A stretch of 64,000 nucleotides of DNA from Nitrosospira briensis. GTDB lineage: Bacteria > Pseudomonadota > Gammaproteobacteria > Burkholderiales > Nitrosomonadaceae. Below, one piece after another: positions 3,280 through 56,390 of the stretch; the first letter of the stretch is position 1; each line of letters opens with the position of its first letter. Location of the stretch: contig NZ_FOVJ01000002.1 in assembly GCF_900115125.1 (NCBI RefSeq), positions 186,001-250,000 on the forward strand. Direction: 5' to 3'. The notes beneath the pieces were generated by a model. It was not told where the DNA came from, did no database searches, and saw only the letters and a program-made list of their open reading frames with translations. Both the position numbers and the translations under genes were made by a program.

Positions 3280-3966
3280 TTATTTCTTCTTTCCTGCGTC
3301 CTTTTTCTCTCCTTCCTTAGCGACGCCTTCTTTCTTCTGTACCGTGGTCGGGATTTCCCCTGCCGCTACTACGGCAGCTGCTTCCTCGGCCGCGACAGCG
3401 CGAGGAATGATGATAGTTGCCACCGGCAAATCATCTCCTTTGGCAAGTGCCGGAACTTCCACACCCTCTGGCAGCTTCAGATCGCTCAAGTGAACGGTAT
3501 TTCCGGCTGCAAGATCGATCAGATCCACTGAAATGAATTCAGGTAGATCCTTGGGCAAACAGGAAACATCCAGTTCGGTAAGCACGTGGCTGACAATACC
3601 GCTTGAAAGCTTCACCCCCGGGCACATCTCCCCGTTTATGAAATGCAGCGGCACTTTCATGTGAACTTTTTTATTCCGGTCGACCCGCTGAAAATCGACA
3701 TGCAATACTTGAAGCTTGAACGGATGCATTTGTATATCGCGCAACAGAACGGGTTCTCTTTGCCCCTCCACATCCATGGAAAGGATAGAAGCATGGAAGG
3801 CTTCCAGCTTGAGCTGATGATAAAGACTGTTATGATCCAGCTCGATGGCTTCCGCAGGATTTTCTCCGCCGTAGATGACTCCCGGCACCTTGCCGGAACC
3901 ACGCAGGCGGCGGCTCGCACCCTTGCCCTGCAATGTGCGCTTTCTCGCGCTGATTTCGATTTGCAT
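3280..3966 (-). CDS. rplY: 50S ribosomal protein L25/general stress protein Ctc
   Basis: A 5S rRNA-binding ribosomal protein of the long (Ctc/TL5) type: 228 residues with an N-terminal L25 beta-barrel (residues about 5-95, starting [20 protein letters not shown]) and a second C-terminal beta domain, ending in a Lys-rich tail (KKDAGKKK). The motif GVIYGG and the VLHVDF strand are characteristic. It sits between prs and pth on the minus strand, the standard prs-rplY-pth arrangement, with a hairpin terminator downstream. Confidence 0.96.
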
Positions 3967-16819: not shown

Positions 16820-17131
16820 TGGGCCGAGCCGAGCGGAACAGAGTTGTTGATGATGACCAGTATGTGCTTAAGTGTGCTTGTATCATAAATGGTTGAGCCT
16901 GCCTAGCAGGCAGGAATTGCAAGCCCAAAGGGAGGAAGTTCCGGAGAATTTTTTCACTTCCAAAGCTAAAGGTTATGAACTGGGGATAATCTGCCGAACG
17001 ATCATGTTGTAAATCGAAAGTATTTGCGATAGCAACGTCCTTTATCGGAATCGCGATAGCTGTCACCGACGTTTCGAGCGTGCTACGCTTCAAAATGCGG
17101 TGACGAATATTCTTAACATCAGAATCAGGTC
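16820..17131. other. Intergenic stretch with possible upstream corA debris
   Basis: No intact gene is visible. The last roughly 80 bases (from about 17050) contain a short plus-strand stretch reading AVTDVSSVLRFK and then, in another frame, TNILNI. This resembles decayed sequence just upstream of the CorA C-terminal motifs that follow. The first half should hold the promoter of the minus-strand lipoprotein gene. Confidence 0.4.
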
Positions 17132-17320
17132 GTCAAGGTCTTCACGATTATTACCGCGGTTTTTTTACCCCCCACGCTCGTGGGCACTTTCTACGGCATG
17201 AACTTCGCCGTAATGCCCGAGCTTTCCTGGGAACACGGATTCATCTATTCGATGGTCCTGACGTTATCGGCCGCATTGCTACCGCTTTTATACATAAAAC
17301 GTAAAGGGTGGTTGCGGTGA
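17132..17320 (+). pseudogene. corA remnant (magnesium/cobalt transporter C-terminus)
   Basis: The frame reads VVKVFTIITAVFLPPTLVG, then TFYGMNFAVMPELSW and ends LLYIKRKGWLR at a TGA. This is the C-terminal two-helix part of a CorA Mg2+ channel, including the diagnostic GMN motif, the MPEL loop and the basic end. Upstream, the in-frame sequence hits a stop at 17114, and a matching CorA-like segment is in another frame, so the gene is truncated and frameshifted. The rest of the roughly 310-residue protein is missing. An intact MgtE at 52.5 kb could supply magnesium uptake. Confidence 0.82.
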
Positions 17321-22362: not shown

Positions 22363-25098
22363 TCAGTGGGCCACTTCCCAATTCGGTCCCACACCTACCT
22401 CCACCAGGAGCGGTACATCGAGTCTGGCCACATCACCCATGAGTTTTGGCAATTCGCATTTTATCATTTCGATTTCATCATCCGGCACTTCCAGCACCAG
22501 TTCGTCGTGGACCTGCATGATAAGCTTGCTGGCAAGGTTTTCCGATGCCAGCCAGCCATGAACCGCTATCATGGCGAGCTTGATGATGTCAGCCGCCGTG
22601 CCTTGCATTGGCGCATTGATGGCGGCGCGTTCCGCTCCTTGCCTGCGGTTGCCGTTGGAACTGTTGATTTCCGGCAGCCATAGCCTGCGCCCGAACACCG
22701 TTTCGACATAACCCGTTTCTCTCGCGGTTTCCCGGGTGCGCTGCATGTAATTTGCCACCCCTGGATAGCGTGCAAAGTAGCGGTCCATATAAACCCTCGC
22801 GGCCGGGCGGTCGATGCCGAGTTGAGAGGCGAGCCCGAATTCGGACATGCCGTAGATCAGGCCGAAGTTAATGACTTTTGCGTAACGGCGCTGCTCGCTG
22901 TCCACCGATTCCAGCGGGACACCGAATACTTCCGAGGCTGTGGCGCGATGTACATCCTCGCCGCCGGCGAAAGCCCTCAGCAACCCTGCATCCTGGGAAA
23001 TATGCGCCATGATGCGCAACTCGATCTGCGAATAATCAGCGGAGACGATGCTGTGCCCCGGCGAAGCTATGAATGCTTCACGAATGCGACGGCCTTCGGC
23101 AGTGCGTACCGGAATGTTTTGCAGATTTGGTTCGTTGCTGGCAAGCCGGCCCGTCACCGCTACCGCTTGCGCATAGTTGGTATGCACCCGCCCGGTAGCT
23201 GCGTCGACCACGCGCGGGAGCTTGTCCGTATAAGTGGATTTGAGCTTGGCGAGGCTGCGATAATCGAGCAGAACTTTGGGCAGGGGGTAATCCAGCGCAA
23301 GGCGCTGCAGCACATCTTCATCGGTAGAGGGCACGCCACCCGGCGTTTTTTTAATGACCGGCAGCTTGAGCCTGTTGAACAGCACTTCCTGAATCTGCTT
23401 TGTTGAATTCAGGTTGAACGGCTGACCGGCGATGGTGCATGCGCGCTCCTCCAGCGCCAGCATTTTCTCGCCGAGTTCGCGGCTTTGGCTTTCCAGCAGC
23501 TTCAAGTCCAGCAGCACGCCGTTGCGCTCGATTTCGAACAGGATGTCCATGACCGGCATTTCAAGAGAGAGGTAAATATAATCGAGCTTTACATCCTCCG
23601 AAATGCCGGGGTACAGGTGTTGATGCAGTTGCAGCGTAATGTCGGCATCCTCTGCCGCGTATTGCGAGGCTGGTTCTATATCCACCTGATCAAAACCTAT
23701 TCTGGCGGCTCCTTTACCGGTAATCTCGTCGTAACTGGTGGTTTTGACGCCGAGATGCCGCAATGCAAGGTTATCCATGTCGTGCGGACGGTGAGGTTCG
23801 AGCACATAAGACTGCAGCAGCGTGTCGTGGACGATGCCGTTTAAAGCAATGCCATGATTGGCGAAGATATGCTTGTCGTATTTGAGGTTCTGCCCCAGTT
23901 TAGGCTTGGCCGGGTTCGTCAGCCAGGGCTTGAGCTTCTCGAGGACGAGACCGATGGGCAGTTGCTGGGGCGCCCCGGCGTACCGGTGCGTTAGCGGCAC
24001 GTAAGCCCCCTGATGAGGCTTAATGGAAAATGCGAGACCGACAAGTTCGGCCTGCATCGGATCCAGCGAGGTGGTTTCCGTATCAACCGAAACAAGCGGT
24101 GCGGTATCGAGGCGCATGACCCACTCATCGAGCTGGGATGGAGTGAGGATGGTTTGATAGTCTGCCCGCACCGGTTCCGGATATAGTCGATCTGTAACTC
24201 CCTTCTCATATCGGGTGGCGGGAATTGCACTGCCTTGCTCTTTTCCGTCCGGTTCCTGCAGCAGTTCCCGCAACCAGGTTTTGAAATCCAGCCGTTCGTA
24301 CAACTCCGCCAGCTTTGCGGCATTCTGCGGTTGCAGCCCAAGGTCATGCAGGCCTATCGGTAATGGAACATCGCATTTGATGGTAAGAAGCTCGCGGGAT
24401 CGGCTCAACCAGTCCAGGGCCTGCCGCAAATTTTCTCCAACCACGCCGCCAATTTCATCGGCATGAACAATAAGATTGTCCAGCGTGCCGAATTGAGCGA
24501 GCCATTTTACTGCTGTCTTGGGACCCACCTTTGGCACGCCGGGAATGTTGTCGGATGTATCTCCGACGAGTGCCAGATAATCCAGCATGCGGGCTGGCGT
24601 TACCCCGAACCGGACAGCCACGCCGGCCTCGTCCAGTGTCTCGTTCGTCATGGTATTGATCAATGTTACCTGCGGATTCACCAGCTGTGCGATGTCCTTG
24701 TCGCCTGTCGAAATTATGCACCGCATATTCTCGCGTTCAGCCTGCTTGGCCAGGGTTCCGATCACATCATCCGCTTCCACCCCTTCCACTATCAACATCG
24801 GCCACCCCATTGCCTTTATGCACTCATGAAGCGGTTCTATCTGGGCCGCGAGGTCGTGCGGCATAGGTGGCCGGTTCGACTTATACTGGGCGTAGAGATC
24901 GTCGCGAAAAGTCTTGCCTTTTGCATCAAATACGCACGCGCTATAATGGGCCTCGTAATCCTTGTGCAAACGGCGCAGCATGTTGAGCACGCCATAAATT
25001 GCGCCGGTCGGCTCGTTGTTGCGGTTGCGGAAATCCGGCAGCGCATGAAAAGCGCGATACAGATAGGATGAGCCGTCAACCAGCAGTAATGTTTTCAT
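22363..25098 (-). CDS. polA: DNA polymerase I
   Basis: A 911-residue repair and Okazaki-fragment polymerase with all three domains: N-terminal 5'-3' exonuclease (LLVDGSSYLYRAFHA, later GDTSDNIPGVPKVGPKTA), an intact 3'-5' exonuclease domain (VSVDTETTSL and YAAEDADITLQL keep the acidic residues), and the polymerase domain with motif A SADYSQIELRIMAH, motif B RRYAKVINFGLIYG and motif C MQVHDELVLEV. It is divergently transcribed from the LOG-family gene with only 21 nt between the start codons, so promoters must overlap coding sequence. Confidence 0.98.
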   Translation of the reverse strand: MKTLLLVDGSSYLYRAFHALPDFRNRNNEPTGAIYGVLNMLRRLHKDYEAHYSACVFDAKGKTFRDDLYAQYKSNRPPMPHDLAAQIEPLHECIKAMGWPMLIVEGVEADDVIGTLAKQAERENMRCIISTGDKDIAQLVNPQVTLINTMTNETLDEAGVAVRFGVTPARMLDYLALVGDTSDNIPGVPKVGPKTAVKWLAQFGTLDNLIVHADEIGGVVGENLRQALDWLSRSRELLTIKCDVPLPIGLHDLGLQPQNAAKLAELYERLDFKTWLRELLQEPDGKEQGSAIPATRYEKGVTDRLYPEPVRADYQTILTPSQLDEWVMRLDTAPLVSVDTETTSLDPMQAELVGLAFSIKPHQGAYVPLTHRYAGAPQQLPIGLVLEKLKPWLTNPAKPKLGQNLKYDKHIFANHGIALNGIVHDTLLQSYVLEPHRPHDMDNLALRHLGVKTTSYDEITGKGAARIGFDQVDIEPASQYAAEDADITLQLHQHLYPGISEDVKLDYIYLSLEMPVMDILFEIERNGVLLDLKLLESQSRELGEKMLALEERACTIAGQPFNLNSTKQIQEVLFNRLKLPVIKKTPGGVPSTDEDVLQRLALDYPLPKVLLDYRSLAKLKSTYTDKLPRVVDAATGRVHTNYAQAVAVTGRLASNEPNLQNIPVRTAEGRRIREAFIASPGHSIVSADYSQIELRIMAHISQDAGLLRAFAGGEDVHRATASEVFGVPLESVDSEQRRYAKVINFGLIYGMSEFGLASQLGIDRPAARVYMDRYFARYPGVANYMQRTRETARETGYVETVFGRRLWLPEINSSNGNRRQGAERAAINAPMQGTAADIIKLAMIAVHGWLASENLASKLIMQVHDELVLEVPDDEIEMIKCELPKLMGDVARLDVPLLVEVGVGPNWEVAH

Positions 25099-28244: not shown

Positions 28245-30479
28245 TCAGGCGGGAATCAGCTTGGCGTATTCGAGTAGCAGCCACTTTGTGCCGGCGCGGC
28301 CGAACTTGACCTCAACGCGCGCATCCGCCCCGCGGCCTTCGCAATTCACTATTACGCCCGGGCCAAACTTGGCATGAACAACATTTTGCCCAACCCTCCA
28401 ACGCGTCGCAGCCGAGTCCTGAGTGCCGGATTCCTGAATTTGCGTCCTCGCACCAGACAGCCCTGAACTCCTGAATTCCGGCTGTTGACTTCCAAACCTT
28501 GCCTTCTGTACCGGCTGTAGCCACTTGAGCAAGTTATCCGGTATTTCCTGCAGGAAACGAGAGGGAATATTGTAACGGGTCTGACCGTGAAGCATGCGGC
28601 TCTGGGTGAAGCTCAAATACAACCGGCGCCGGGCGCGGGTCAAGGCGACGTACATTAAACGCCTCTCCTCTTCCAGCCCGCCCGCTTCATTACGGCTGTT
28701 ATCGTGGGGAAACAGGCCTTCTTCCAGTCCGCTAAGAAATACGCTGTGAAATTCCAGCCCCTTGGCCGAGTGCACCGTCATCAGCTGCAGCGCATCCTCG
28801 CCTCCTCCAGCCTGATGCTCTCCCGCTTCCAGAGAGGCATGGTTGAGAAATACTGTGAGGCTGTCGTCCTCGGCTTCGTGTACGAAGCTGGTGGCGGCGT
28901 TGACCAACTCGTTCAGATTCTCCAGCCGGTCCGCTCCCTCCCGCTCTGCACGATAATGCCCCAACAGCCCGCTGTGCTCCAGCATGTGGTCCACCACCTC
29001 CGGCAGGGGTAAATTTTCGCAGACCCGGCGCATCGACTCGATCAGCACAACAAAGCCTTCAACTCCTTTCTTTATCTTGTCCGGAGCCATACTTCCATCA
29101 AGCCGAGCCTGTGCATTACCTTCTGTTTCAGACGTGGAAGCCGGTACGCGCCCGCATTTCTGCAGCATTGCCTCCCAAATGCTTCCCCCTTGCCGCCGGG
29201 CGTCATCCTGCACCTGTTCCAGGCTTCGCATACCGATACCGCGAGCAGGAAAGTTGACGACCCGGAGCAGCGCATTGTCGTCGTCGGGATTGGCTATCAG
29301 CCGCAAATAGGCCAAGGCATGCTTGATTTCCTGCCGTTCGAAAAAACGCATACCTCCATATACGCGATAAGGCAAGGAGGCGTTGAACAACGCATGCTCC
29401 AGCACGCGCGACTGCGCATTGGAACGATAGAGCAGCGCCATCTGGGACAATGCCACGCCTTCGGCCCGCAGTGACTTCACTTCGTCCACCACGAACGCGG
29501 CCTCATCGAAATCTGTGGGCGCGTTATATACGCGTATCGGCTCCCCATGACCTTCCGCAGTCCAGAGATTCTTGCCGAGCCGTCCGCTATTGTTGCGTAT
29601 CAGCGTATTGGCGGCGTCCAGTATGTTGCCGTGAGAGCGGTAGTTTTGCTCCAGCTTGATAATCTTCGAGATACGGAAGTCGCGCTCAAACTCTTTCATA
29701 TTGCCGGTATTCGCGCCCCGAAACGCGTAAATGCTCTGGTCGTCATCGCCCACAGCAAATACAGCGGTCTGTTCGCCGGCAAGCAATCTTAGCCATTTGT
29801 ACTGCAAGCGGCTCGTATCCTGAAACTCATCCACGAGAATATGGCGAAAGCGGCTGCGATAATGTTCGCGCACAATCTCGTTGCGATGCAGCAATTCGTA
29901 GTTGCGCAGCAACAGTTCAGCAAAGTCGACCACGCCCTCCTTATTGCATTGCTGCTCGTAGACAAGGTAAAACTCCACCATTTTCCGCACGAAATCATCG
30001 TACGTTTCAACCTGCGATGCTCTAAGACCCTCTTCTTTGGCGTTATTAATAAACCACTGTACCTGCCGCGCAGGAAATTTTTCATCGTCCGCGCCCAGGC
30101 TTTTCAGGATGCGCTTGATGACCGCCAATTGATCTGCAGAATCCAGTATCTGAAAAGTCTGGGGCAATCCCGCATCCTGATGGTGAGCACGAAGCATGCG
30201 ATTGCACAGGCCGTGGAAAGTGCCTGTCCACATCCCCCGCGTGTTGATTGGCAGCATGGCCGAAATGCGGCTGAGCATTTCCTTCGCTGCCTTGTTGGTG
30301 AAAGTGACAGCCAATATGCCGTGGGGACTGGCTTGACCCGACTGGATGAGGTGCGCAATACGGGTAGTGAGCACCCGCGTTTTGCCACTACCCGCGCCCG
30401 CCAGCACCAGTGCCGACTGATGCGGTAAAGCGACCGCTTCGCGTTGTTCAGGATTTAGCGCAGAAAGTAGAGAAGACAT
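28245..30479 (-). CDS. uvrD: ATP-dependent DNA helicase UvrD/PcrA
   Basis: A 744-residue SF1A 3'-5' DNA helicase for nucleotide-excision and mismatch repair. Motifs: Q-motif LNPEQREAV, Walker A GAGSGKTRVL, II ILVDEFQDTSRLQ, III VGDDDQSIYAFRGA, V MTVHSAKGLEF and VI YVALTRARRRLYL. The C-terminus has the RNA-polymerase-binding Tudor-like region (VGQNVVHAKFGPGVI to EYAKLIPA). It lies between BPSS1780 and an inverted-repeat element. Confidence 0.97.
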   Translation of the reverse strand: MSSLLSALNPEQREAVALPHQSALVLAGAGSGKTRVLTTRIAHLIQSGQASPHGILAVTFTNKAAKEMLSRISAMLPINTRGMWTGTFHGLCNRMLRAHHQDAGLPQTFQILDSADQLAVIKRILKSLGADDEKFPARQVQWFINNAKEEGLRASQVETYDDFVRKMVEFYLVYEQQCNKEGVVDFAELLLRNYELLHRNEIVREHYRSRFRHILVDEFQDTSRLQYKWLRLLAGEQTAVFAVGDDDQSIYAFRGANTGNMKEFERDFRISKIIKLEQNYRSHGNILDAANTLIRNNSGRLGKNLWTAEGHGEPIRVYNAPTDFDEAAFVVDEVKSLRAEGVALSQMALLYRSNAQSRVLEHALFNASLPYRVYGGMRFFERQEIKHALAYLRLIANPDDDNALLRVVNFPARGIGMRSLEQVQDDARRQGGSIWEAMLQKCGRVPASTSETEGNAQARLDGSMAPDKIKKGVEGFVVLIESMRRVCENLPLPEVVDHMLEHSGLLGHYRAEREGADRLENLNELVNAATSFVHEAEDDSLTVFLNHASLEAGEHQAGGGEDALQLMTVHSAKGLEFHSVFLSGLEEGLFPHDNSRNEAGGLEEERRLMYVALTRARRRLYLSFTQSRMLHGQTRYNIPSRFLQEIPDNLLKWLQPVQKARFGSQQPEFRSSGLSGARTQIQESGTQDSAATRWRVGQNVVHAKFGPGVIVNCEGRGADARVEVKFGRAGTKWLLLEYAKLIPA

Positions 30480-45929: not shown

Positions 45930-46694
45930 ATGCATGACGAAAACAACCCTCTGCCTCGACGCACAAAGACAAGCAAACTCGCAGCAAGCGAACAACGCCG
46001 TATCAAGCTGAACGGCAAGGATGTGGCGTATGTCCTCATGCGCTGCAGGCGAAAGACCATTGGCATGAAAATCGACAGGGACGGATTAACGGTCCGCATC
46101 CCGCCGAGAGAATCATTATGCTGGGTCGAATCGGTATTGCAAAAAAGAGCCGATTGGATCGTAAAAAAACTCGACGAATGGAAGAATAGAAAGCCGAGTA
46201 AGCCCGAGTGGGCCGACGGCGCAATTTTCCCATTGTTGGGCGAGCCTTGGCGGGTGACGGTTACCCCAGCCGGGGTTGTGCAAATGGTCCCGGCCACCTC
46301 GAACAAAGAGGCGGAGGAGAACCAGTTGAAATTGCCGTTGACATCGATGCTGACATCCCAACAAATCGAAAAAGCGGTGATGGAATGGTATCGCCATCAG
46401 GCCGTGGCGTGTTTCAGCGAACGCATTGCGATGTATGCAAATAAGCTCGGTGTAGCGTTGCCGCAACTGCGATTATCGCGTGCCAGAACCTTATGGGGCA
46501 GTTGCAACTCGCGCGGCATTGTCCATCTCAACTGGCGACTGATCCAGAAGCCGCTTGACCTGGTGGATTACGTCGTGGCGCACGAATTGTCGCATCTCAT
46601 CGAAATGAATCACTCCGAGGCGTTCTGGCGGATAGTGGGAAGTGTATATCCGGGTTACGCGGCGGCGAGGAAGAAATTGAGGGGAGTTGGGTGA
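45930..46694 (+). CDS. YgjP-like metallopeptidase domain protein (SprT/M48-like)
   Basis: A 254-residue soluble protein. Its C-terminal third has the zinc motif VVAHELSHLIEMNHSEAFW, with HExxH and a downstream His, preceded by SRARTLWGSCNSRGIVHLNWRL. This is the YgjP/WLM (DUF45) domain. The N-terminal part (MRCRRKTIGMKIDRDGL) is the usual Lys/Arg-rich beta region. The biological substrate is unknown. It is the last core gene before the Hachiman-like island. Confidence 0.92.
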   Translation: MHDENNPLPRRTKTSKLAASEQRRIKLNGKDVAYVLMRCRRKTIGMKIDRDGLTVRIPPRESLCWVESVLQKRADWIVKKLDEWKNRKPSKPEWADGAIFPLLGEPWRVTVTPAGVVQMVPATSNKEAEENQLKLPLTSMLTSQQIEKAVMEWYRHQAVACFSERIAMYANKLGVALPQLRLSRARTLWGSCNSRGIVHLNWRLIQKPLDLVDYVVAHELSHLIEMNHSEAFWRIVGSVYPGYAAARKKLRGVG

Positions 46695-46799
46695 TGGTAC
46701 AGATTCAATATGCTGCACTCCTGATCTGGCAACTGTGTTGGATGCCAATTTTTGGAAAGTGCCAAGAGTAGTCATTTAACGTCGGCGGAATGGATAAAA

Positions 46800-47696
46800 A
46801 TGACGCAGTGGAAATCCTCAAAACAACCAATTAGCAGATCGTTCAACCCGGACACCGTTTCTGCGAGCGCGACGGGAGCGGCCCTACCCTCCCATCTCTC
46901 AAACCTTTCAAAACGCGCCGAGTCCCTTGTTTCATCTGACGGATGTCGCATCGATATCTGGGAGTTAAACGTTCCGTCAACTGCGGACTATCTGAGCGCA
47001 TGGGCCTCGAACTTCCGACAGCACTACTGTTCCGATACTGAGATCGACGATCTCAGGGCTGGCACAGGCCTTTCCCGTGCTGAATACCTGACTCAACTGA
47101 TATTCCCGGACAAGAGTACCGCTCCCGGACCCGGTATCCGGGCCGGCGACTTTGCTGAGCTGTTAGTATCCGACTACGTTGAGTACCTGCTTGGGTATTG
47201 GGTCCCCCGAGGAAAATATGCCGAGAAATCGAGTCGTGACGAGTCAGTAAAGGGAGTGGATATCCTTGGATTTCGTCTAACCAATCCGCCATCGCCAACC
47301 TCTTCTGACACGCTGTTGGCTTTCGAGGTCAAGGCACAGTTCTCCGGCAGTAAGTACACGGGTCGTCTACAAACCGCTATCATCGATTCGTCAAAAGACT
47401 ACCTGAGACGCGCTATGATGCTAAATGCGACGAAGCGACGGCTTCGCCAAGCGGGCCAGCATGACAGAGCGCTGCTGGTTCAACGCTTTCAGAATCTGTC
47501 AGACCACCCGTATATTTACCGCTCGGGCGCAGCCGGAGTCCTGTCTGATACAGCGTACGACGAGGATATTCTTCAGAAATCAACCAAGGTCTTGGGGCAC
47601 CAGAATGCGGGGAACCTTGAGCTCATCGTGATTCGAGGCAAGGAGCTGATGAAGCTAGTTCACGCGTTATATGAACGGGCCGCGAATGAGGCCTGA
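46800..47696 (+). CDS. HamA-like nuclease of a Hachiman-type defense system (PD-(D/E)XK)
   Basis: A 298-residue soluble protein from ATG 46800 (a TTG at 46752 would add 16 residues). The middle part carries the arrangement expected of a HamA/DUF1837 nuclease: GIRAGDFAELLVSDYVEYLL (Glu120), then KGVDILGF (Asp154), then LLAFEVKAQF (Glu176 and Lys178), so the PD-(D/E)XK residues appear intact. No signal peptide or membrane helix is seen. In Hachiman, HamA is the DNA-degrading effector held by the HamB helicase. Its end overlaps the next reading frame, which suggests coupling to hamB. The family assignment is from motif pattern and context, not a database match. Confidence 0.72.
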   Translation: MTQWKSSKQPISRSFNPDTVSASATGAALPSHLSNLSKRAESLVSSDGCRIDIWELNVPSTADYLSAWASNFRQHYCSDTEIDDLRAGTGLSRAEYLTQLIFPDKSTAPGPGIRAGDFAELLVSDYVEYLLGYWVPRGKYAEKSSRDESVKGVDILGFRLTNPPSPTSSDTLLAFEVKAQFSGSKYTGRLQTAIIDSSKDYLRRAMMLNATKRRLRQAGQHDRALLVQRFQNLSDHPYIYRSGAAGVLSDTAYDEDILQKSTKVLGHQNAGNLELIVIRGKELMKLVHALYERAANEA

Positions 47697-48078
47697 GTTC
47701 AATAGTCGTCGCCTGTTTGGCATCACCAGATCCAAAGGTAAGATGTACGAACTCGGATTGCCCGAGGCTTTGCATATTGCCGTGCCGGAGAATAGCGAAC
47801 CGCAAGAGCTGTTCGTCCTGACTGTGGGCACGCTGGGCGACGTCGCGGCGAGTTTGAGCGATGCTGAAAATTTCGATGTGCCACTGACCCCGCCCATAGT
47901 GGAGGAGTTAGGCTTCTCCGCGAGCTTCTTTGATGCCTTCTGTGAGTCTCGGTTCTCTGAGGCCATTGCGCGCGACACCGCCCTGCTCGCGGCATCCTCC
48001 TACTACCTTGCTGGCCGACCAGGGAGTAGTTTGGTGCTCGCAAGTCAGCTTGAGGTCGTCCCGGACGCCCCGCCGTAG
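47671..48078 (+). pseudogene. N-terminal part of frameshifted HamB-like helicase
   Basis: A 135-residue frame that begins inside the end of the HamA-like gene (ATG 47671 or 47686) and stops at TAG 48076. Its last part (AASSYYLAGRPGSSLVLASQLE) looks like the N-terminal helical domain found before the helicase core in HamB-type proteins. The helicase frame resumes as AVDKLLHWVLLAQ in the -1 frame a few bases on. Adding one C in the CCCC run at 48068-48071 would join the two. I therefore read this as the first part of one gene of about 1,047 codons, not a separate small protein. Confidence 0.7.
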
Positions 48079-48086
48079 ATAAGCTG

Positions 48087-50819
48087 TTGCATTGGGTGCT
48101 TCTGGCTCAATGGGCTGACTATCCGGTCGACGTACATATATTCTTCGGCAAGACACTGGGCAACGTAGCCAGATTGCTGGCATCCCACTTTCACGATGGC
48201 TCCAGTCCGACTGAGTTGATGATCACGCTCGGTGCGTTGAGGCTCCGTGCCTATGCGGGCGCATCGGCACGCGATCTCCTGTTCATTGACATCATTGCCG
48301 CTATCATTCGTATGCGGGTAGCGGCCTCTGTTTGGACCACACTGCCGAGGTTTACCGGCCTCACCCCTGCGCAGTGGGCGACGGCTATTCGAAGGCCTGA
48401 GTTCCCGAAGGAGCTGTGGCCATCGCAGATACTGCTTGGTCGAGCCGGCCTCTTCTCCGGCGCGTCGGGCATTGTTCAGATGCCAACCAGCGCGGGGAAG
48501 ACCCGGTCCGTTGAAATCTTACTGCGGAGTAGCTTTCTTTCTAGAGGTACGAAACTAGCAGTAGTGGTTGCGCCATTCAGGGCTTTGTGCCATGAAATTG
48601 GCACATCGCTTCGGCACGCATTCCGGGAAGACAGTGTCAAAGTCAACGAGCTTTCCGATGCGATGCAGCTTGACTTCCTGCAGCAGGTGGCGGAATTGTT
48701 CGGCTCCGAAGCACCCACCACACAGCATATACTGATACTAACCCCCGAGAAATTCCTCTACGTACTACGGCAGACGCCAGCTCTCGTAACTGACATCGGG
48801 ATCGTTGTATACGATGAAGGACACCAGTTTGATTCCGGCAGTCGAGGCATAACTTATGAGCTACTACTGACCGAGATTAAAGCGCTCCTCCCGCAGGAGG
48901 CGCAAACGGTTCTCGTTTCTGCCGTTATTCAAAACGCGCAGGCGATCGGGGAATGGCTGATAGGTGACAGCACTCACGTTATCAACGGTAGCGGCCTACT
49001 GCCCACGGCGCGATCGATGGCTTTTGCAAGCTGGATCGAACGTCTGGGTCAGCTCATGTTTTATGAGTCAGATAACTACGAACATCCTGACTACTTTGTT
49101 CCCCGGGTCATCGAGCAACAAACACTCATTCCGCGCCCCCGCGAGCACACGGAGCGTCACTTCCCGGTTAAGAGTAGCTCTAACGATATCGCGCTGTATC
49201 TCGGTATACGGCTAGTAGCGCGAGGCGCTATTGCGATATTCTACGGGCGAAAGAGCACCGCCTCTAAAATCGCCACACGCGCCGTCGAGATCTATGAGCG
49301 CGGCTTTAATGTTGCGCCGCCTTCGGCATCGGCGGATCCCGATGAGCTGAGGAGGATGAAATATCTTATCGACGAACATTTTGGTGACCGTTCCGTTTCA
49401 AGCCGGGCTGCATTTTTGGGCATTTTCGTCCACCACGGGACAACGCCTCATGGCCTGCGGCTGTCTATCGAGTATGCGATGCAGCAAAGTCTGATTAATT
49501 TTGTTGCATGCACATCAACGCTTGCCCAAGGGGTCAACCTCCCCATTCGATACTTAATTGTTTCGGGAATCCATCAGGGTAACGAGAGGATAAAGGTTCG
49601 GGATTTCCAGAACCTGGTAGGTCGAGCTGGCCGATCTGGCATGCACACTGAAGGCCTTGTTATATTCTCTGACCCAAAGGTTTACGATGAGCGACTAACG
49701 GAGTCTTGGAAGTTCAATGCCTCCGTCGAACTGCTGTCATCGAATGGATCAGAGAGTACGACGAGTTCACTTTTGGGATTGCTCGCTCCGTTTCAGAGCA
49801 GCGATCACAAGGGAGTGCTACAGCTAACCGCGGACAATTTGTGCCGTCTCGTTCTGTCCGACGAAGTTACGTGGCCAATATGGGCCCATGAGGTCGTACG
49901 ATTGAATCCGCAGCTCAAGCTCGAAGCTAAGGGACTTGTAGCCGAAATTCGAAGTCGACGCCAGTTGATTTTCGCCATTGAGAGCTATCTGATGGCAAAT
50001 CGCGGAAACAGCTCCTTTGACGAATTCAAGTTCGCGGCAGAGAAATTGGCCTCGTCAACCCTCGCCTATCATCTGGCGTCGGACGTGCAGAAGCCAGCTA
50101 TAAAAACCTTGTTTTCCTCCGTCGCTGAGTATTTACAGCAACAGGAACCAGCAACTCAAAAGCAGGCTATTTATGCGAAAACTCTTCTCGGTGTAAAGAG
50201 CGCTAAGGCAATCGAGCAGTGGGTCAATGAAAAACGCGAGTTCCTGCTGGCGCTAGATTCAAACGAATCTTGGCTGGCAATGGTATGGGAGCTATTTGCG
50301 GGACATTCAGACCACAAATTTTTCCATACCGTGGAGCCGAGGTCTCTTGCGATTCAACTCGCGATGCAGTGGCTTGAGGGAAAGCCCTATTTCGATCTCT
50401 TTGCACATTCGAGCTCTGAACAAGGAAGCAAGCCATGGGGTATAGAGAAGCGCAGACGACTAACAGAAGACGATATCGTTGATTTCTGCGAAAGCACACT
50501 TGGATTCGAATGTTCATTAGTCCTTGCGGCAGTGGCGCAGTTTCTTTTCGGAGAAAGAGGCCCTGACGAGAGCCAAAGCGCATTGATTTTTTTTCAAAAA
50601 GCGCTTAAATACGGCCTACCAGATGTACAGTCGGTATCCTGCTACGAAAGCGGATTCGCTGACCGCGTTGTCGCTCAGAGAATCTGTCATGCAGTACGCG
50701 CGGACGGTTTTTCTGGCAAGTTCTTCTCAACAGCACTCAAGTCGCATCAAGAACGAATCAAGACGACGCTCAAAGGTTACCCAAGCTATTTCGAATCTGT
50801 CCTTGCGGTACAAACTTGA
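48087..50819 (+). CDS. HamB-like SF2 helicase core (5'-broken by frameshift)
   Basis: A 910-residue Ski2-like SF2 helicase. Walker A is GIVQMPTSAGKTRSVE, motif Ib ILTPEKFLYVL, motif II VYDEGHQFD, motif III SAVIQNAQ, and the second RecA domain ends FVACTSTLAQGVNLPI and NLVGRAGRSGMHTEG (motifs V and VI). The remaining roughly 400 residues are mostly helical. The annotated start would be TTG 48087 with no ribosome binding site; the frame is open only from 48054, so the N-terminal domain lies in the preceding frame. Together with HamA it would form a Hachiman antiphage complex; the helicase would sense damaged or phage DNA and release the nuclease. Codon use looks more A/T-rich than neighbours. 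Confidence 0.75.
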   Translation: MHWVLLAQWADYPVDVHIFFGKTLGNVARLLASHFHDGSSPTELMITLGALRLRAYAGASARDLLFIDIIAAIIRMRVAASVWTTLPRFTGLTPAQWATAIRRPEFPKELWPSQILLGRAGLFSGASGIVQMPTSAGKTRSVEILLRSSFLSRGTKLAVVVAPFRALCHEIGTSLRHAFREDSVKVNELSDAMQLDFLQQVAELFGSEAPTTQHILILTPEKFLYVLRQTPALVTDIGIVVYDEGHQFDSGSRGITYELLLTEIKALLPQEAQTVLVSAVIQNAQAIGEWLIGDSTHVINGSGLLPTARSMAFASWIERLGQLMFYESDNYEHPDYFVPRVIEQQTLIPRPREHTERHFPVKSSSNDIALYLGIRLVARGAIAIFYGRKSTASKIATRAVEIYERGFNVAPPSASADPDELRRMKYLIDEHFGDRSVSSRAAFLGIFVHHGTTPHGLRLSIEYAMQQSLINFVACTSTLAQGVNLPIRYLIVSGIHQGNERIKVRDFQNLVGRAGRSGMHTEGLVIFSDPKVYDERLTESWKFNASVELLSSNGSESTTSSLLGLLAPFQSSDHKGVLQLTADNLCRLVLSDEVTWPIWAHEVVRLNPQLKLEAKGLVAEIRSRRQLIFAIESYLMANRGNSSFDEFKFAAEKLASSTLAYHLASDVQKPAIKTLFSSVAEYLQQQEPATQKQAIYAKTLLGVKSAKAIEQWVNEKREFLLALDSNESWLAMVWELFAGHSDHKFFHTVEPRSLAIQLAMQWLEGKPYFDLFAHSSSEQGSKPWGIEKRRRLTEDDIVDFCESTLGFECSLVLAAVAQFLFGERGPDESQSALIFFQKALKYGLPDVQSVSCYESGFADRVVAQRICHAVRADGFSGKFFSTALKSHQERIKTTLKGYPSYFESVLAVQT

Positions 50820-51050
50820 CTACCAACCGCTTTTATCGGGAAGCGACTATCGTAATAGGCAGAATTGCGCTGTTTTAGAATCGTTTTTTTTTGACAAATA
50901 GCTAGACCAAATCCGAAATACTAAATGTTCAGGAAAGCCACTGTATAAGCTCTCCCCAGCTAATGCAATGCTGGCAGAACTGGGGGCGTATTCAGAGGTC
51001 TCGGCCTTTGTGTTAGTATTTCCACCTCATCATTCTTGTACTCGGTGTCC

Positions 51051-51185
51051 ATGCGTACGCTTTCCTCTGCCCTCCTGATAGTTTTGCTGCTTAGCGCCTG
51101 CGGCCTAAAAGGGCCTCTTTATCTTCCGCAGGAGCCGGTTCCACCGCAGCCGAAGCAATCTCAGGATGACGAGAACAAGAAGTGA
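51051..51185 (+). CDS. lptM: LptM-like small lipoprotein
   Basis: A 44-residue lipoprotein: signal MRTLSSALLIVLLLSAC with lipobox Cys17, then GLKGPLYLP and a Pro/Gln-rich, charged tail. The motif CGLKGPLYLP matches LptM (formerly YifL), which supports LptD folding in the outer membrane in E. coli. Its stop overlaps the lysA start (GTGA), the classical lptM-lysA arrangement. Confidence 0.9.
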   Translation: MRTLSSALLIVLLLSACGLKGPLYLPQEPVPPQPKQSQDDENKK

Positions 51186-52438
51186 GCGGTTTCCCTTCTT
51201 TCGGTTATCAAAATTCCGGGTTGTGCAGTGAATCGGTTCAACTGGATTTCATCGCCCGGAAATTTGGCACGCCTTGCTACGTTTATTCGCGAGCGGCGCT
51301 AGTTGCTGCTTACCAGGAATTTGACGCGGCGTTTGCCGGCCGCGATCACTTGGTGTGCTATGCGGTCAAGGCCAATTCCAGTCTCGCTATTCTCAACCTG
51401 TTTGCCCGCCTTGGCAGCGGCTTCGATATAGTTTCAGGCGGCGAACTGCGGCGGGTGCTGAAAGCGGGAGGCGATCCGCAAAAAATAGTTTTTTCCGGGG
51501 TCGGAAAACAGCCTGACGAAATGCGCGCGGCGCTTGCCATTGACATACTCTGCTTCAATGTTGAATCGGAAGCGGAGTTGCAAGTATTGAACCAGGTTGC
51601 AGGGGAAATGAATAAAATTGCGCCCGTGAGCCTGCGTGTCAACCCAGACGTAGATGCAAAAACCCATCCGTATATTTCTACCGGCCTCAAGGAGAATAAG
51701 TTCGGTATTCCCTTCGATGAAGCGGAATCACTTTATGCCTCTTCTCGTGATTTTTCCAACGTACGCGTTACCGGACTGGATTGTCATATAGGCTCTCAGT
51801 TGACCGAACTCGCTCCCTTCATTGAAGCTTGTAGGAAAATGCTGGGGCTGCTCGATCGCCTCCAAACGCAGGGCTTGCAAATCGATCATCTGGATTTAGG
51901 TGGTGGATTGGGAATTCGTTATTCCGCGGAAAATCCGCCACTCGTCGGGCAATATGTCGATGCGCTGCGTGCCTGCGTAGGACAGCGTAAACAGCGCATC
52001 CTGATCGAGCCGGGCCGCGCACTGGTGGGAAACGCGGGGATACTGCTTACTCGTGTGGAGTACCTCAAGCATACAGGCGATAAGAATTTCGCCATCGTGG
52101 ACGCGGCCATGAACGACCTGATGCGCCCTGCGCTGTACGATGCCTATCACGAAATCCTTCCGGTCAACGTCAAAAATGATGGCGGCATCAAGACCTATCA
52201 GGTCGTCGGTCCCGTTTGCGAGACCGGCGATTTTCTGGGCCACGACCGCGACCTGGCGCTATCCCAGGGAGATCTGCTCGCCATCATGTCCGTGGGCGCA
52301 TATGGCATGAGCATGAGCTCGAATTACAACACCCGCCCGCGTGCTGCGGAAGTGATGGTGGATGGCGATCAGGTTCATCTCATCCGCGAGCGTGAATCCA
52401 TGGAGCAATTGATGGCTGGCGAAAAAATTCTGCCTTAG
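51182..52438 (+). CDS. lysA: Diaminopimelate decarboxylase
   Basis: The last step of lysine synthesis, a PLP enzyme of the alanine racemase fold. The 418-residue protein starts with a GTG overlapping lptM. The PLP-binding lysine is in CYAVKANSSLAIL; DCHIGSQL, LDLGGGLGI, EPGRALVGNAG and GPVCETGDFL (catalytic Cys) are conserved. It is convergent with mgtE. Confidence 0.97.
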   Translation: MSGFPSFGYQNSGLCSESVQLDFIARKFGTPCYVYSRAALVAAYQEFDAAFAGRDHLVCYAVKANSSLAILNLFARLGSGFDIVSGGELRRVLKAGGDPQKIVFSGVGKQPDEMRAALAIDILCFNVESEAELQVLNQVAGEMNKIAPVSLRVNPDVDAKTHPYISTGLKENKFGIPFDEAESLYASSRDFSNVRVTGLDCHIGSQLTELAPFIEACRKMLGLLDRLQTQGLQIDHLDLGGGLGIRYSAENPPLVGQYVDALRACVGQRKQRILIEPGRALVGNAGILLTRVEYLKHTGDKNFAIVDAAMNDLMRPALYDAYHEILPVNVKNDGGIKTYQVVGPVCETGDFLGHDRDLALSQGDLLAIMSVGAYGMSMSSNYNTRPRAAEVMVDGDQVHLIRERESMEQLMAGEKILP

Positions 52439-54341: not shown

Positions 54342-56390
54342 ATGCGGACTAAAGAGCTTTCCAATAAGTTGTGCCGGAATCATTCGGGTATGAATGCTGT
54401 GCCGCTTGTCAAAGGTAAAATAGTGTTCGAGGAGGCAGCATCGCCGTTCACTGGTGCGACGATGTATGTGCGCCTGGAAGATATAACCGCCGCCGACGTC
54501 GCTTCTAAGGTAGTCGCGGAATACGTCAAGCGGAATGTAGCTTTCGACCCGAAAATCTCCAGCGACTTAATATTCACCGTAAGCGGCAACCTGCCAGACC
54601 CCAGAGCGAGCTATGCGATCAGGGTACATATCGATATTGACGGGGACGGAGAGGTGAGCCAGGGTGATTTCATAAGCATGCAAAGTTATCCAGTAATCAC
54701 TTTTGGCCATCCAAGTGAAGTATCGATTCTCGCCAGACAGGTAATCTCAAGCCAGAATAAGGAGTGTATGAAAATGGCAAAAGAAGAGTATCGTTCAAGC
54801 CCGGAAGTACGCACAGGTTTTGTCAAAGGCAATACCTTTAGATACCGTCCTGTGCGCTACAGCGTCATCGACGGTGAGGCCATCTTTGAAGGCGACATCG
54901 TGTTGGGAAGCATCAATGAAATGGAGCGGCTAGTCGCTGAGATAAACAGGGAAAAAGATACAGGGTCCCTCGGCATCGTCGTCACTGGCACGCAGTTCCG
55001 TTGGCCGGGCGGCGTTATACCCTACACCATTGATCCGGATCTCCCGAATCAAGATCGCGTCACTGACGCAATAGCTCACTGGCATAGTCGCACCGGTGTC
55101 AGTTTCATCCCCCGCACCGACGAGCAGAATTTTGTAACCTTCAGGCCAGGAGAGGGATGTTCGTCATCAGTAGGCATGCGGGGGATCGGAGAGCAGTTCA
55201 TCACGCTGGCGTCAGGGTGCGACAAAGGCAGCACGATTCATGAAATAGGCCATGCTGCAGGTCTTTGGCACGAGCAAAGCCGCGAAGACCGGGACCGGTT
55301 CATACGGATCCTTTTCGCGAATATCGAGGAAGGAAGGGAGCATAACTTTGACCAGCATATTACCGATGGCGACGACGTAGGCAAATATGATTTCGGGTCA
55401 ATAATGCATTATGACGAATTGGCATTCTCGAGGAACGACCAGCCCACTATTGAGACCCTGAATGGTGAGTCTATAGGCCAGAGAAGCGGGCTTAGTAACG
55501 ACGATATTCTAGCCGTCAACTTCATGTATCCGCTTTCGATTCCATTAATTTTGCAACCGGGACTGTACACCATCCAGCAGCAGAGCAATGGCCGGTTCGT
55601 GGATGCGCATGAACACTCGGGAGAGGATTTCGGACTGGTAACGCGCCCCTCACAGAATAACCGCACCCAGCAATGGATTCTAATACCTGTGGGAGGCGTG
55701 TTTACAATCCAGCAGCAGAGCAATGGCCGGTTTGTGGATGCGCATGAACACTCGGGGGAGGACTTCGGGGTGGTCACGCGCCCTGCACAGAATAACGATA
55801 CCCAGAAATGGGTGTTGACGCGGTTCAGCGGTCCATATAAGGGCGGCCTATACACCATCCAGCAAAAGAGCAATGGCCGATTCATGGATGCGTATCAAGA
55901 TTCGGGAGAGGACTTCGAATTGGTCACGCGTCCCGCAAAGAATAACGATGCCCAGAGATGGGCGATAGTGCCCTTGGGCAACAACACGTTCACCATTCAG
56001 CAAAAGAGCACTGGCCGGTTTATGGATGCGCATGAAATTGAAGAGAGGGACTTTGCGCTCGTTACGCGACCTGAACAGAACAACGACACACAGCGGTGGA
56101 CTCTAACTCCTGTTGGAGTGGTGTGCACTATCCAGCAGCAGAGCAATAGCCGATTCGTGGACGCGTATCAAAGTTCGGGAGAGGACTACGGGTTGGTCAC
56201 GCGTCCTGCAAAGAATAACGATGCTCAGAGATGGATAGTAATACCCTCGGTCAACAACACGTTCACCATCCAGCAAAAAAGTAGTGGCCGGTTTATGGAT
56301 GCCCATGAAATTGAAGAAAAGGACTTTGCTCTCGTTACCCGACCGGAACAGAACAATGCTACACAAAGGTGGCTGATCACACCAGTGTAG
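54342..56390 (+). CDS. Astacin-type metalloprotease with ricin-like repeats
   Basis: A 682-residue protein in three parts. Residues about 20-125 resemble the YbaY/type III chaperone-like lipoprotein domain (GKIVFEEAASPFTGATMYVRLED). Residues about 215-395 are an astacin (M12A) catalytic domain: RWPGGVIPYTID, the zinc signature HEIGHAAGLWHEQSRED (H300, E301, H304, H310) and the Met-turn SIMHYD (Met355, Tyr357). From residue 406 there are six repeats of about 45 residues (TIQQQSNGRFVDAHE...). No signal peptide is visible at ATG 54342 or 54390. The IS3 remnant upstream suggests gene transfer. Exported peptide digestion or host interaction would be guesses. Confidence 0.85.
   Translation: MRTKELSNKLCRNHSGMNAVPLVKGKIVFEEAASPFTGATMYVRLEDITAADVASKVVAEYVKRNVAFDPKISSDLIFTVSGNLPDPRASYAIRVHIDIDGDGEVSQGDFISMQSYPVITFGHPSEVSILARQVISSQNKECMKMAKEEYRSSPEVRTGFVKGNTFRYRPVRYSVIDGEAIFEGDIVLGSINEMERLVAEINREKDTGSLGIVVTGTQFRWPGGVIPYTIDPDLPNQDRVTDAIAHWHSRTGVSFIPRTDEQNFVTFRPGEGCSSSVGMRGIGEQFITLASGCDKGSTIHEIGHAAGLWHEQSREDRDRFIRILFANIEEGREHNFDQHITDGDDVGKYDFGSIMHYDELAFSRNDQPTIETLNGESIGQRSGLSNDDILAVNFMYPLSIPLILQPGLYTIQQQSNGRFVDAHEHSGEDFGLVTRPSQNNRTQQWILIPVGGVFTIQQQSNGRFVDAHEHSGEDFGVVTRPAQNNDTQKWVLTRFSGPYKGGLYTIQQKSNGRFMDAYQDSGEDFELVTRPAKNNDAQRWAIVPLGNNTFTIQQKSTGRFMDAHEIEERDFALVTRPEQNNDTQRWTLTPVGVVCTIQQQSNSRFVDAYQSSGEDYGLVTRPAKNNDAQRWIVIPSVNNTFTIQQKSSGRFMDAHEIEEKDFALVTRPEQNNATQRWLITPV
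55562..56387 (+). repeat. Six tandem ricin-like (QxW-type) coding repeats
   Basis: Six units of about 135-150 bp within the astacin gene, each coding a TIQQ(Q/K)SxGRF(V/M)DA start and a TRPxxNNxxQ(R/Q/K)W end. Six units would make two beta-trefoils. Units 3 and 5 (DAYQ) and 4 and 6 (DAHEIEE) are most alike, so a two-unit block appears to have duplicated. Confidence 0.82.

Follow-up and report, generated by a model that had tools for sequence, protein, structure and literature searches.

Organization of the hamAB locus

The 64,000-nucleotide stretch of Nitrosospira briensis DNA analyzed here (the window, to whose numbering all positions refer unless noted) contains three + strand open reading frames (ORFs), flanked by a YgjP-like gene and lysA, at 46800–47696, 47671–48078, and 48087–50819 (Table 1). 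Judging from profiles, predicted fold, gene order, and catalytic residues, the locus 46800–50819 is a genuine pair of hamA and hamB, the nuclease and helicase genes of Hachiman defense, and its subfamily is already modelled in PADLOC. The state of hamB should be noted, since the gene is split over two frames inside the region for its N-terminal helical bundle. The split makes the function of the locus doubtful, but not its descent from a Hachiman locus.

A sequence-only reading of the window had proposed Hachiman from a HamA-like frame and a 910-residue Ski2-like helicase frame on the same strand. Both frames are present, and the proposal is borne out on the four grounds above. The same reading described the two genes as adjacent and overlapping. 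The 910-residue ORF is separated from hamA by 390 bases, occupied mostly by the ORF 47671–48078; the overlap, of 11 bases, is between hamA and the hamB 5′ piece that the reading had missed. hamA is therefore directly upstream of hamB on the same strand.

Relatives of HamB occur at at least 80 genome loci, with titles naming several phyla, and HamA is present on the same locus in 78 of the 80 genome loci fetched. Usable coordinates for measuring overlap and length were available for 75 loci (the window and L058 included), of which 67 with a HamB of more than 850 residues and a HamA of 200–420 residues were kept. The 11-base overlap is found in 63 of these 67. Within the genome of the window, the HamB piece and the Pfam HamA model each have a single match, both at the locus. 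Promoter and terminator scans of the region gave chance-level results (3 found against 3.1 expected and 6 against 4.8, respectively).

HamA nuclease

The hamA frame runs from the ATG at 46800 inside a listed ORF beginning with a TTG at 46752. In the profile search that the sequence-only reading had suggested for both proteins, HamA matches the PADLOC HamA1 profile (PDLC00161) with an E-value of 1.2e-101, as the HamB pieces match HamB1 (see below). The protein is thus identified by a profile and not, as had been supposed, by motif pattern alone. The further suggestion of a divergent or unclassified HamA is partly upheld: the general Pfam HamA model gives an E-value of 2.8e-4 (21.2 bits, under the 25-bit cut-off) and the sequence similarity to the solved Escherichia coli HamA is weak (E 0.3), whereas a PADLOC model for this type exists.

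Glu120, Asp154, Glu176, and Lys178 (numbering from ATG 46800) are invariant across 55 aligned HamA proteins, comprising 54 of the 67 kept relatives and that of the window. The motif reading of these residues was thus exact. The putative D-E(x)K nuclease site is intact in sequence. The predicted structure of HamA has a mean predicted local distance difference test score (pLDDT) of 91.9. In a fold search of the PDB, the model gives three matches at E ≤ 0.001 (8vx9_A, 8vxy_A, and 8zue_A), all of which are Hachiman-type, and the best is 8vx9_A (HamA, E 1e-6). The third and last match, 8zue_A, is from E. coli AbpAB (PDB 8zue, titled Hachiman), which likewise combines a Ski2-like helicase partner with a HamA-like domain. 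AbpA is a fusion with inactive residues in the HamA-like part (excerpts of PMC12278908), whereas HamA in the window is unfused and keeps all four residues. Matches of HamA to a Pfam EBNA1-like model (11.8 bits, cut-off 25) and an NCBIfam VapB-like model (20.4 bits, cut-off 60) were dismissed as chance.

Split of hamB over two frames

The ORF 47671–48078 matches the PADLOC HamB1 profile (PDLC00188) at profile positions 1–121 of 1037 (E 6.9e-34), and the 910-residue ORF matches it at positions 136–1034 of 1037 (E 0). Since the two ORFs match successive parts of one profile, hamB is split over two frames. The upstream frame is closed by a TAG at 48076–48078. The downstream frame is open from 48054, and its first ATG, GTG, or TTG is the TTG at 48087, from which 910 codons follow with no further stop. 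In the assembly, the bundle expected to hold HamA is consequently not on one chain but is split between 48054 and 48078. The sequence-only reading had taken the 910-residue helicase as the whole HamB and overlooked the first ~130 codons in the other frame, and this split changes the functional reading of the locus.

The 3′ piece contains the motifs PTSAGKT, DEGH, SA, and GRAGR, most of whose residues are invariant in an alignment of 46 sequences (45 of the 67 kept relatives and the 3′ piece itself). On the same ORF, Pfam DEAD scores above its cut-off and Helicase_C just below. In 66 of the 67 kept loci, HamB is one chain of 1,027–1,057 residues (~1,040); the HamB of L133 has only 920 residues because its gene is itself broken.

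The frames of the two pieces were compared in 82 loci, namely 80 from genome contigs, one from a genome of the same family, and the window. Two loci without the N piece (L135 and L139) were set aside, leaving 80. Both pieces lie in the same frame in 78 of them, the exceptions being the window and L098, and in 75 the frame is also without a stop to the end of the match. Five rows were flagged in this comparison, and the later break in L133 emerged only in a separate break scan of 83 loci, which flagged 17 rows. L087, L098, L133, L136, and the window were counted as broken. The uncounted rows are those at a locus start or end (L077, L103, L118, and L139), L134 with a stop 127 bases before the locus end, L135 without the N part and HamA, and L073, L079, L080, L120, L126, and L127, whose flags were judged from coordinates and ORFs to be natural ends or pre-start stops (L080 without an entry among the ORF coordinates of the relatives). 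The stop in L096 is upstream of the hamB start and was not counted as a break for this reason. hamB is thus broken in 4 of the 80 fetched genome loci, none at the site found in the window; L087 and L098 are metagenome-assembled, and L133 and L136 are isolates by title. hamA is not flagged as broken in three of the four (L087, L133, and L136). The excerpts of PMC12278908 and PMC12799240 contain no report of a split HamB, as far as a non-exhaustive literature search extends.

As a separate observation, a second helicase stretch with distant similarity (22%) is located downstream of hamAB in the metagenome-assembled L128 (9341–10624 of that locus).

Position of the break in the HamB structure

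The closest copy among the matches listed is that of Allopusillimonas ginsengisoli (L060), with 78% identity in HamA and 78% and 75% in the two HamB pieces. The 11-base overlap is shared (hamA ends at 3543 plus the stop and hamB starts at 3536 in L060), and L060 hamB is intact in one open frame, unlike that of the window. The predicted structure of L060 HamB has a pLDDT of 89.9, and its best fold matches are 8vxa_A (E 3.1e-33), 8vx9_B, and 8vxy_B. The structure predictions, also suggested by the sequence-only reading, therefore place both the HamA and the L060 HamB models nearest to solved Hachiman proteins.

These solved proteins are from E. coli Hachiman (PDB 8vx9, 8vxa, and 8vxy; excerpts of PMC12278908), which has the same nuclease-helicase pair with a D-E(x)K core, an N-terminal helical bundle, and a DEGH helicase. 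Sequence similarity is low for HamA, as mentioned above, and for HamB (E 6.7e-43 with the 910-residue piece). HamB has ~1,040 residues in the relatives of the window against 1,174 in the solved E. coli chain, and the split of hamB is a further difference. On the L060 model, the break maps to the loop between helices 112–121 and 130–140, about halfway through the N-terminal helical bundle, which we read as ending near residue 235. The bundle of HamB helps bind HamA in the solved E. coli complex (excerpts of PMC12278908). The position of the break inside this HamA-binding bundle makes a recently inactivated Hachiman locus the most likely reading.

Frame-break control and selection

ORFs of two genomes of the genus, G006 and G020, were compared with the window. 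No frame break is flagged in the 48 genes of G006, and the single flag among the 51 of G020 concerns an antisense ORF, opposite a gene at the edge of the window that matches better. Matches over at least 90% of the length in one frame are found for 45 of 48 and 48 of 51, respectively, amounting to ~45 kb in each case; the remainder consist of ORFs at the ends of the window, one with a different start, the antisense ORF, and one partly matched G020 ORF. As a positive control, L060 HamB searched likewise falls into two frames in the window. The lack of any other convincing frame break in the window against the two relatives suggests that the assembly is not error-prone here.

Nonsynonymous (dN) and synonymous (dS) divergences from L060 are 0.142 and 1.25 for hamA (ratio ~0.11), 0.127 and 1.38 for the hamB 5′ piece (~0.09), and 0.161 and 2.56 for the 3′ piece (~0.06), with dS near saturation. 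The low ratios in hamA and in both hamB pieces suggest that the genes were under constraint until recently. Together with the 910 codons free of any further stop, they speak for a recent break.

Insertion site

DNA similarity to genomes of the genus extends to 46778 in G006 and 46764 in G020, and it is regained at 50966 and 50905, respectively. Similarity stopping near 46778 and resuming near 50905 gives an insert of ~4.1 kb, in which hamAB is the sole content and no mobility gene was seen. The comparison with related strains proposed by the sequence-only reading thus agrees with its view of an insertion between core genes, and its naming of the flanks also holds, by Pfam for the YgjP-like gene and lysA and by eye for the lptM-like ORF.

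The genus is represented by 23 genomes. A best match of lysA is present in all 23, and a ygjP-like gene is upstream of lysA in all 22 measured, including that of the window; G002 was left out of the gap measurement because its contig begins just before lysA. The interval between the two genes corresponds to 46695–51050 in the window and to loci L140–L144, L040, L041, L043–L045, and L047–L057. The gap is 213–474 bases in 10 of the 22 genomes and 919 bases, with no ORF of 90 codons, in G020. In the other 11, including the window, it is 1.1–7.0 kb with ORFs of at least 90 codons.

Ten of the 34 gap ORFs outside the window, picked by eye, were scanned with PADLOC. The matches are PD-Lambda-5_B adjoining an ATPase gene (G010), PDC-M60A/B/C after a pair of genes that we take to be IS3-like (G007), PDC-S02 (G019), a phospholipase effector (G012, E 2.5e-8), and one weak restriction-enzyme match (G006, E 0.0011), and two scanned ORFs (G003 and G006) have no PADLOC match. 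The gaps also hold cargo that is not defense-like, such as PEP-CTERM-like proteins, judged by eye, in G012, G014, and G021. The interval is variable in the genus and looks like a small, definable hotspot of defense genes.

Of 101 related genomes (the own genome included), 6 have HamB-like matches, and those besides the own genome all lie outside the genus. Outside the genome of the window, the sole full-length match is in G033 of the same family, at 42% identity. A plasmid search with the DNA of the whole locus gave no match. Viral contigs yielded one locus, and since its HamB is only 48% identical, there is no evidence that this copy travels on phages. Base composition does not point to a foreign source (G+C content of 0.54 in hamA, 0.59 and 0.52 in the hamB pieces, and 0.54 in the window).

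Table 1. Positions of hamAB, its break, and the flanking genes in the window
Feature	Position	Strand	Evidence
hamA, PD-(D/E)XK nuclease, 298 residues, E120/D154/E176/K178	46800..47696	+	PADLOC, Pfam, alignment, structure
hamB 5′ piece, ~130 codons, first half of the N-terminal helical bundle	47686..48078	+	PADLOC HamB1
hamB frame-change stretch	48054..48078	+	Direct sequence reading; frames of the two pieces differ
hamB 3′ piece, 910 codons, remaining N-terminal bundle, RecA1, RecA2, and C-terminal domains	48087..50819	+	PADLOC, motifs
Inserted segment, ~4.1 kb, hamA and hamB alone	46779..50904 (approximate)	+	DNA similarity to genus genomes
ygjP-like metallopeptidase gene, left flank	45930..46694	+	Pfam PF01863, E 6.3e-54
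lptM-like small lipoprotein ORF (presumed name, given without a profile search), 44 residues, right flank	51051..51185	+	Read by eye
lysA, presumably diaminopimelate decarboxylase (product name assumed for the Pfam family), right flank	51182..52438	+	Pfam PF02784, E 4.9e-68

Functional interpretation

We consider it likely that the locus is a Hachiman system in an ~4.1 kb insert at a variable site, kept under purifying selection until recently, and that its hamB has since been inactivated by the frame change. The break would then be a feature of the organism and not of the assembly, and the Hachiman system in this genome is probably switched off. By analogy with E. coli, HamB of an intact system would patrol DNA with HamA held by its N-terminal helical bundle, a 3′ DNA end would drive the HamB ATPase to free or activate HamA, and HamA released or activated in this way would destroy phage and host DNA. 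In the window, translation of hamB would halt after ~130 codons, cutting the HamA-docking bundle in two, and either no helicase would be produced or one lacking its first five helices. HamA would then be neither held nor activated, and we propose that the cell is unprotected by the locus, yet alive. The split locus would give no defense and no strong toxicity. Certain E. coli mutants in the HamA-HamB interface lose defense while the cells remain viable (excerpts of PMC12278908).

Several points weigh against this interpretation. The probable loss of function is deduced from the E. coli structure, while HamA here is only weakly similar to its E. coli counterpart in sequence, and single interface mutations left E. 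coli defense unimpaired (excerpts of PMC12278908). The loop holding the break is variable, and HamB might still assemble there from two chains; the absence of other damage in the two pieces is also compatible with an error or with a functional split. A single wrong base call might account for the split, and the frame-break control would miss breaks near gene ends. Of one G020 ORF with 333 codons, only the C-terminal 66 residues are matched (97%) in that control, at window 17120–17317, where the gene may be short and its G020 ORF over-long.

The chief alternative is that the frame change is a sequencing or assembly error, the Hachiman system of the organism being intact and working. The undamaged state and purifying selection of the rest of hamB, together with a break that is a single event, are in line with an error. 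However, no second convincing frame break emerged from the 48 and 51 gene comparisons over the window, the frame changes outside any long homopolymer, and four other broken hamB genes occur in 80 loci, two of them in isolates, though those may be errors too. We regard an error as rather unlikely. It is less probable still that HamB works as two chains, with a stop at 48078, a restart just downstream, and a split bundle assembling into a functional protein. The loop position of the break between two bundle helices would allow this, and the TTG at 48087 begins 8 bases past the stop. No ribosome-binding signal is found, however, at TTG 48087, CTG 48084, or GTG 48096 (duplex energies of 0.3, 0.3, and 0.4, compared with −5.0 at the hamA ATG and −1.8 as the random median). 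This absence counts for little, as scores of 0.6 or worse were also obtained for 6 of 23 other genes tested in the window. The single frame kept in 78 of the 80 loci with both pieces and the different break sites of the four other counted broken copies also argue against two chains. Programmed frameshifting was rejected: no slippery heptamer of the X XXY YYZ type is present in the overlap, and the one at 47868 is too far upstream for the downstream frame. A three-part Hachiman, with two separately translated HamB chains divided between helices five and six, is marginally less probable than two chains as such; if it exists, the free N-terminal piece could govern the strength of the hold on HamA.

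The least probable explanation, which we regard as extremely unlikely, is that the nuclease gene is unrelated and adjoins the gene of a housekeeping helicase of the Ski2/Hel308 type. Weak Hel308-type matches are found with the 910-residue piece alone, the best from NCBIfam at 111.3 bits against a cut-off of 887, and the piece falls short of the Hel308/Ski2 equivalog cut-off. In contrast, the HamB profile matches at E 0 over nearly its whole length, no helicase match is found in another member of the genus, and HamA accompanies the helicase in 78 of the 80 fetched genome loci.

Recognizing this locus as Hachiman is routine, but an annotation based on the long helicase ORF alone would report a functional system despite the split in the sensor gene. 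Mild toxicity has been reported for ectopic Hachiman expression (excerpts of PMC12278908). The finding of five hamB genes broken at separate positions (that of the window and those of 4 of 80 loci) would fit this toxicity, and such copies could serve to measure the decay rate of these systems.

Other genes in the window

PADLOC matches of window 22363–25098 and 28245–30479 to DRT and GajB, respectively, were dismissed as housekeeping cross-matches, and we take these genes to be PolA-like and UvrD-like. The gene at 54342–56390, with no match of at least 55% identity in the compared stretches of G006 and G020, has astacin-type metallopeptidase and ricin-type lectin domains, and weak PADLOC matches are located in the lectin part.

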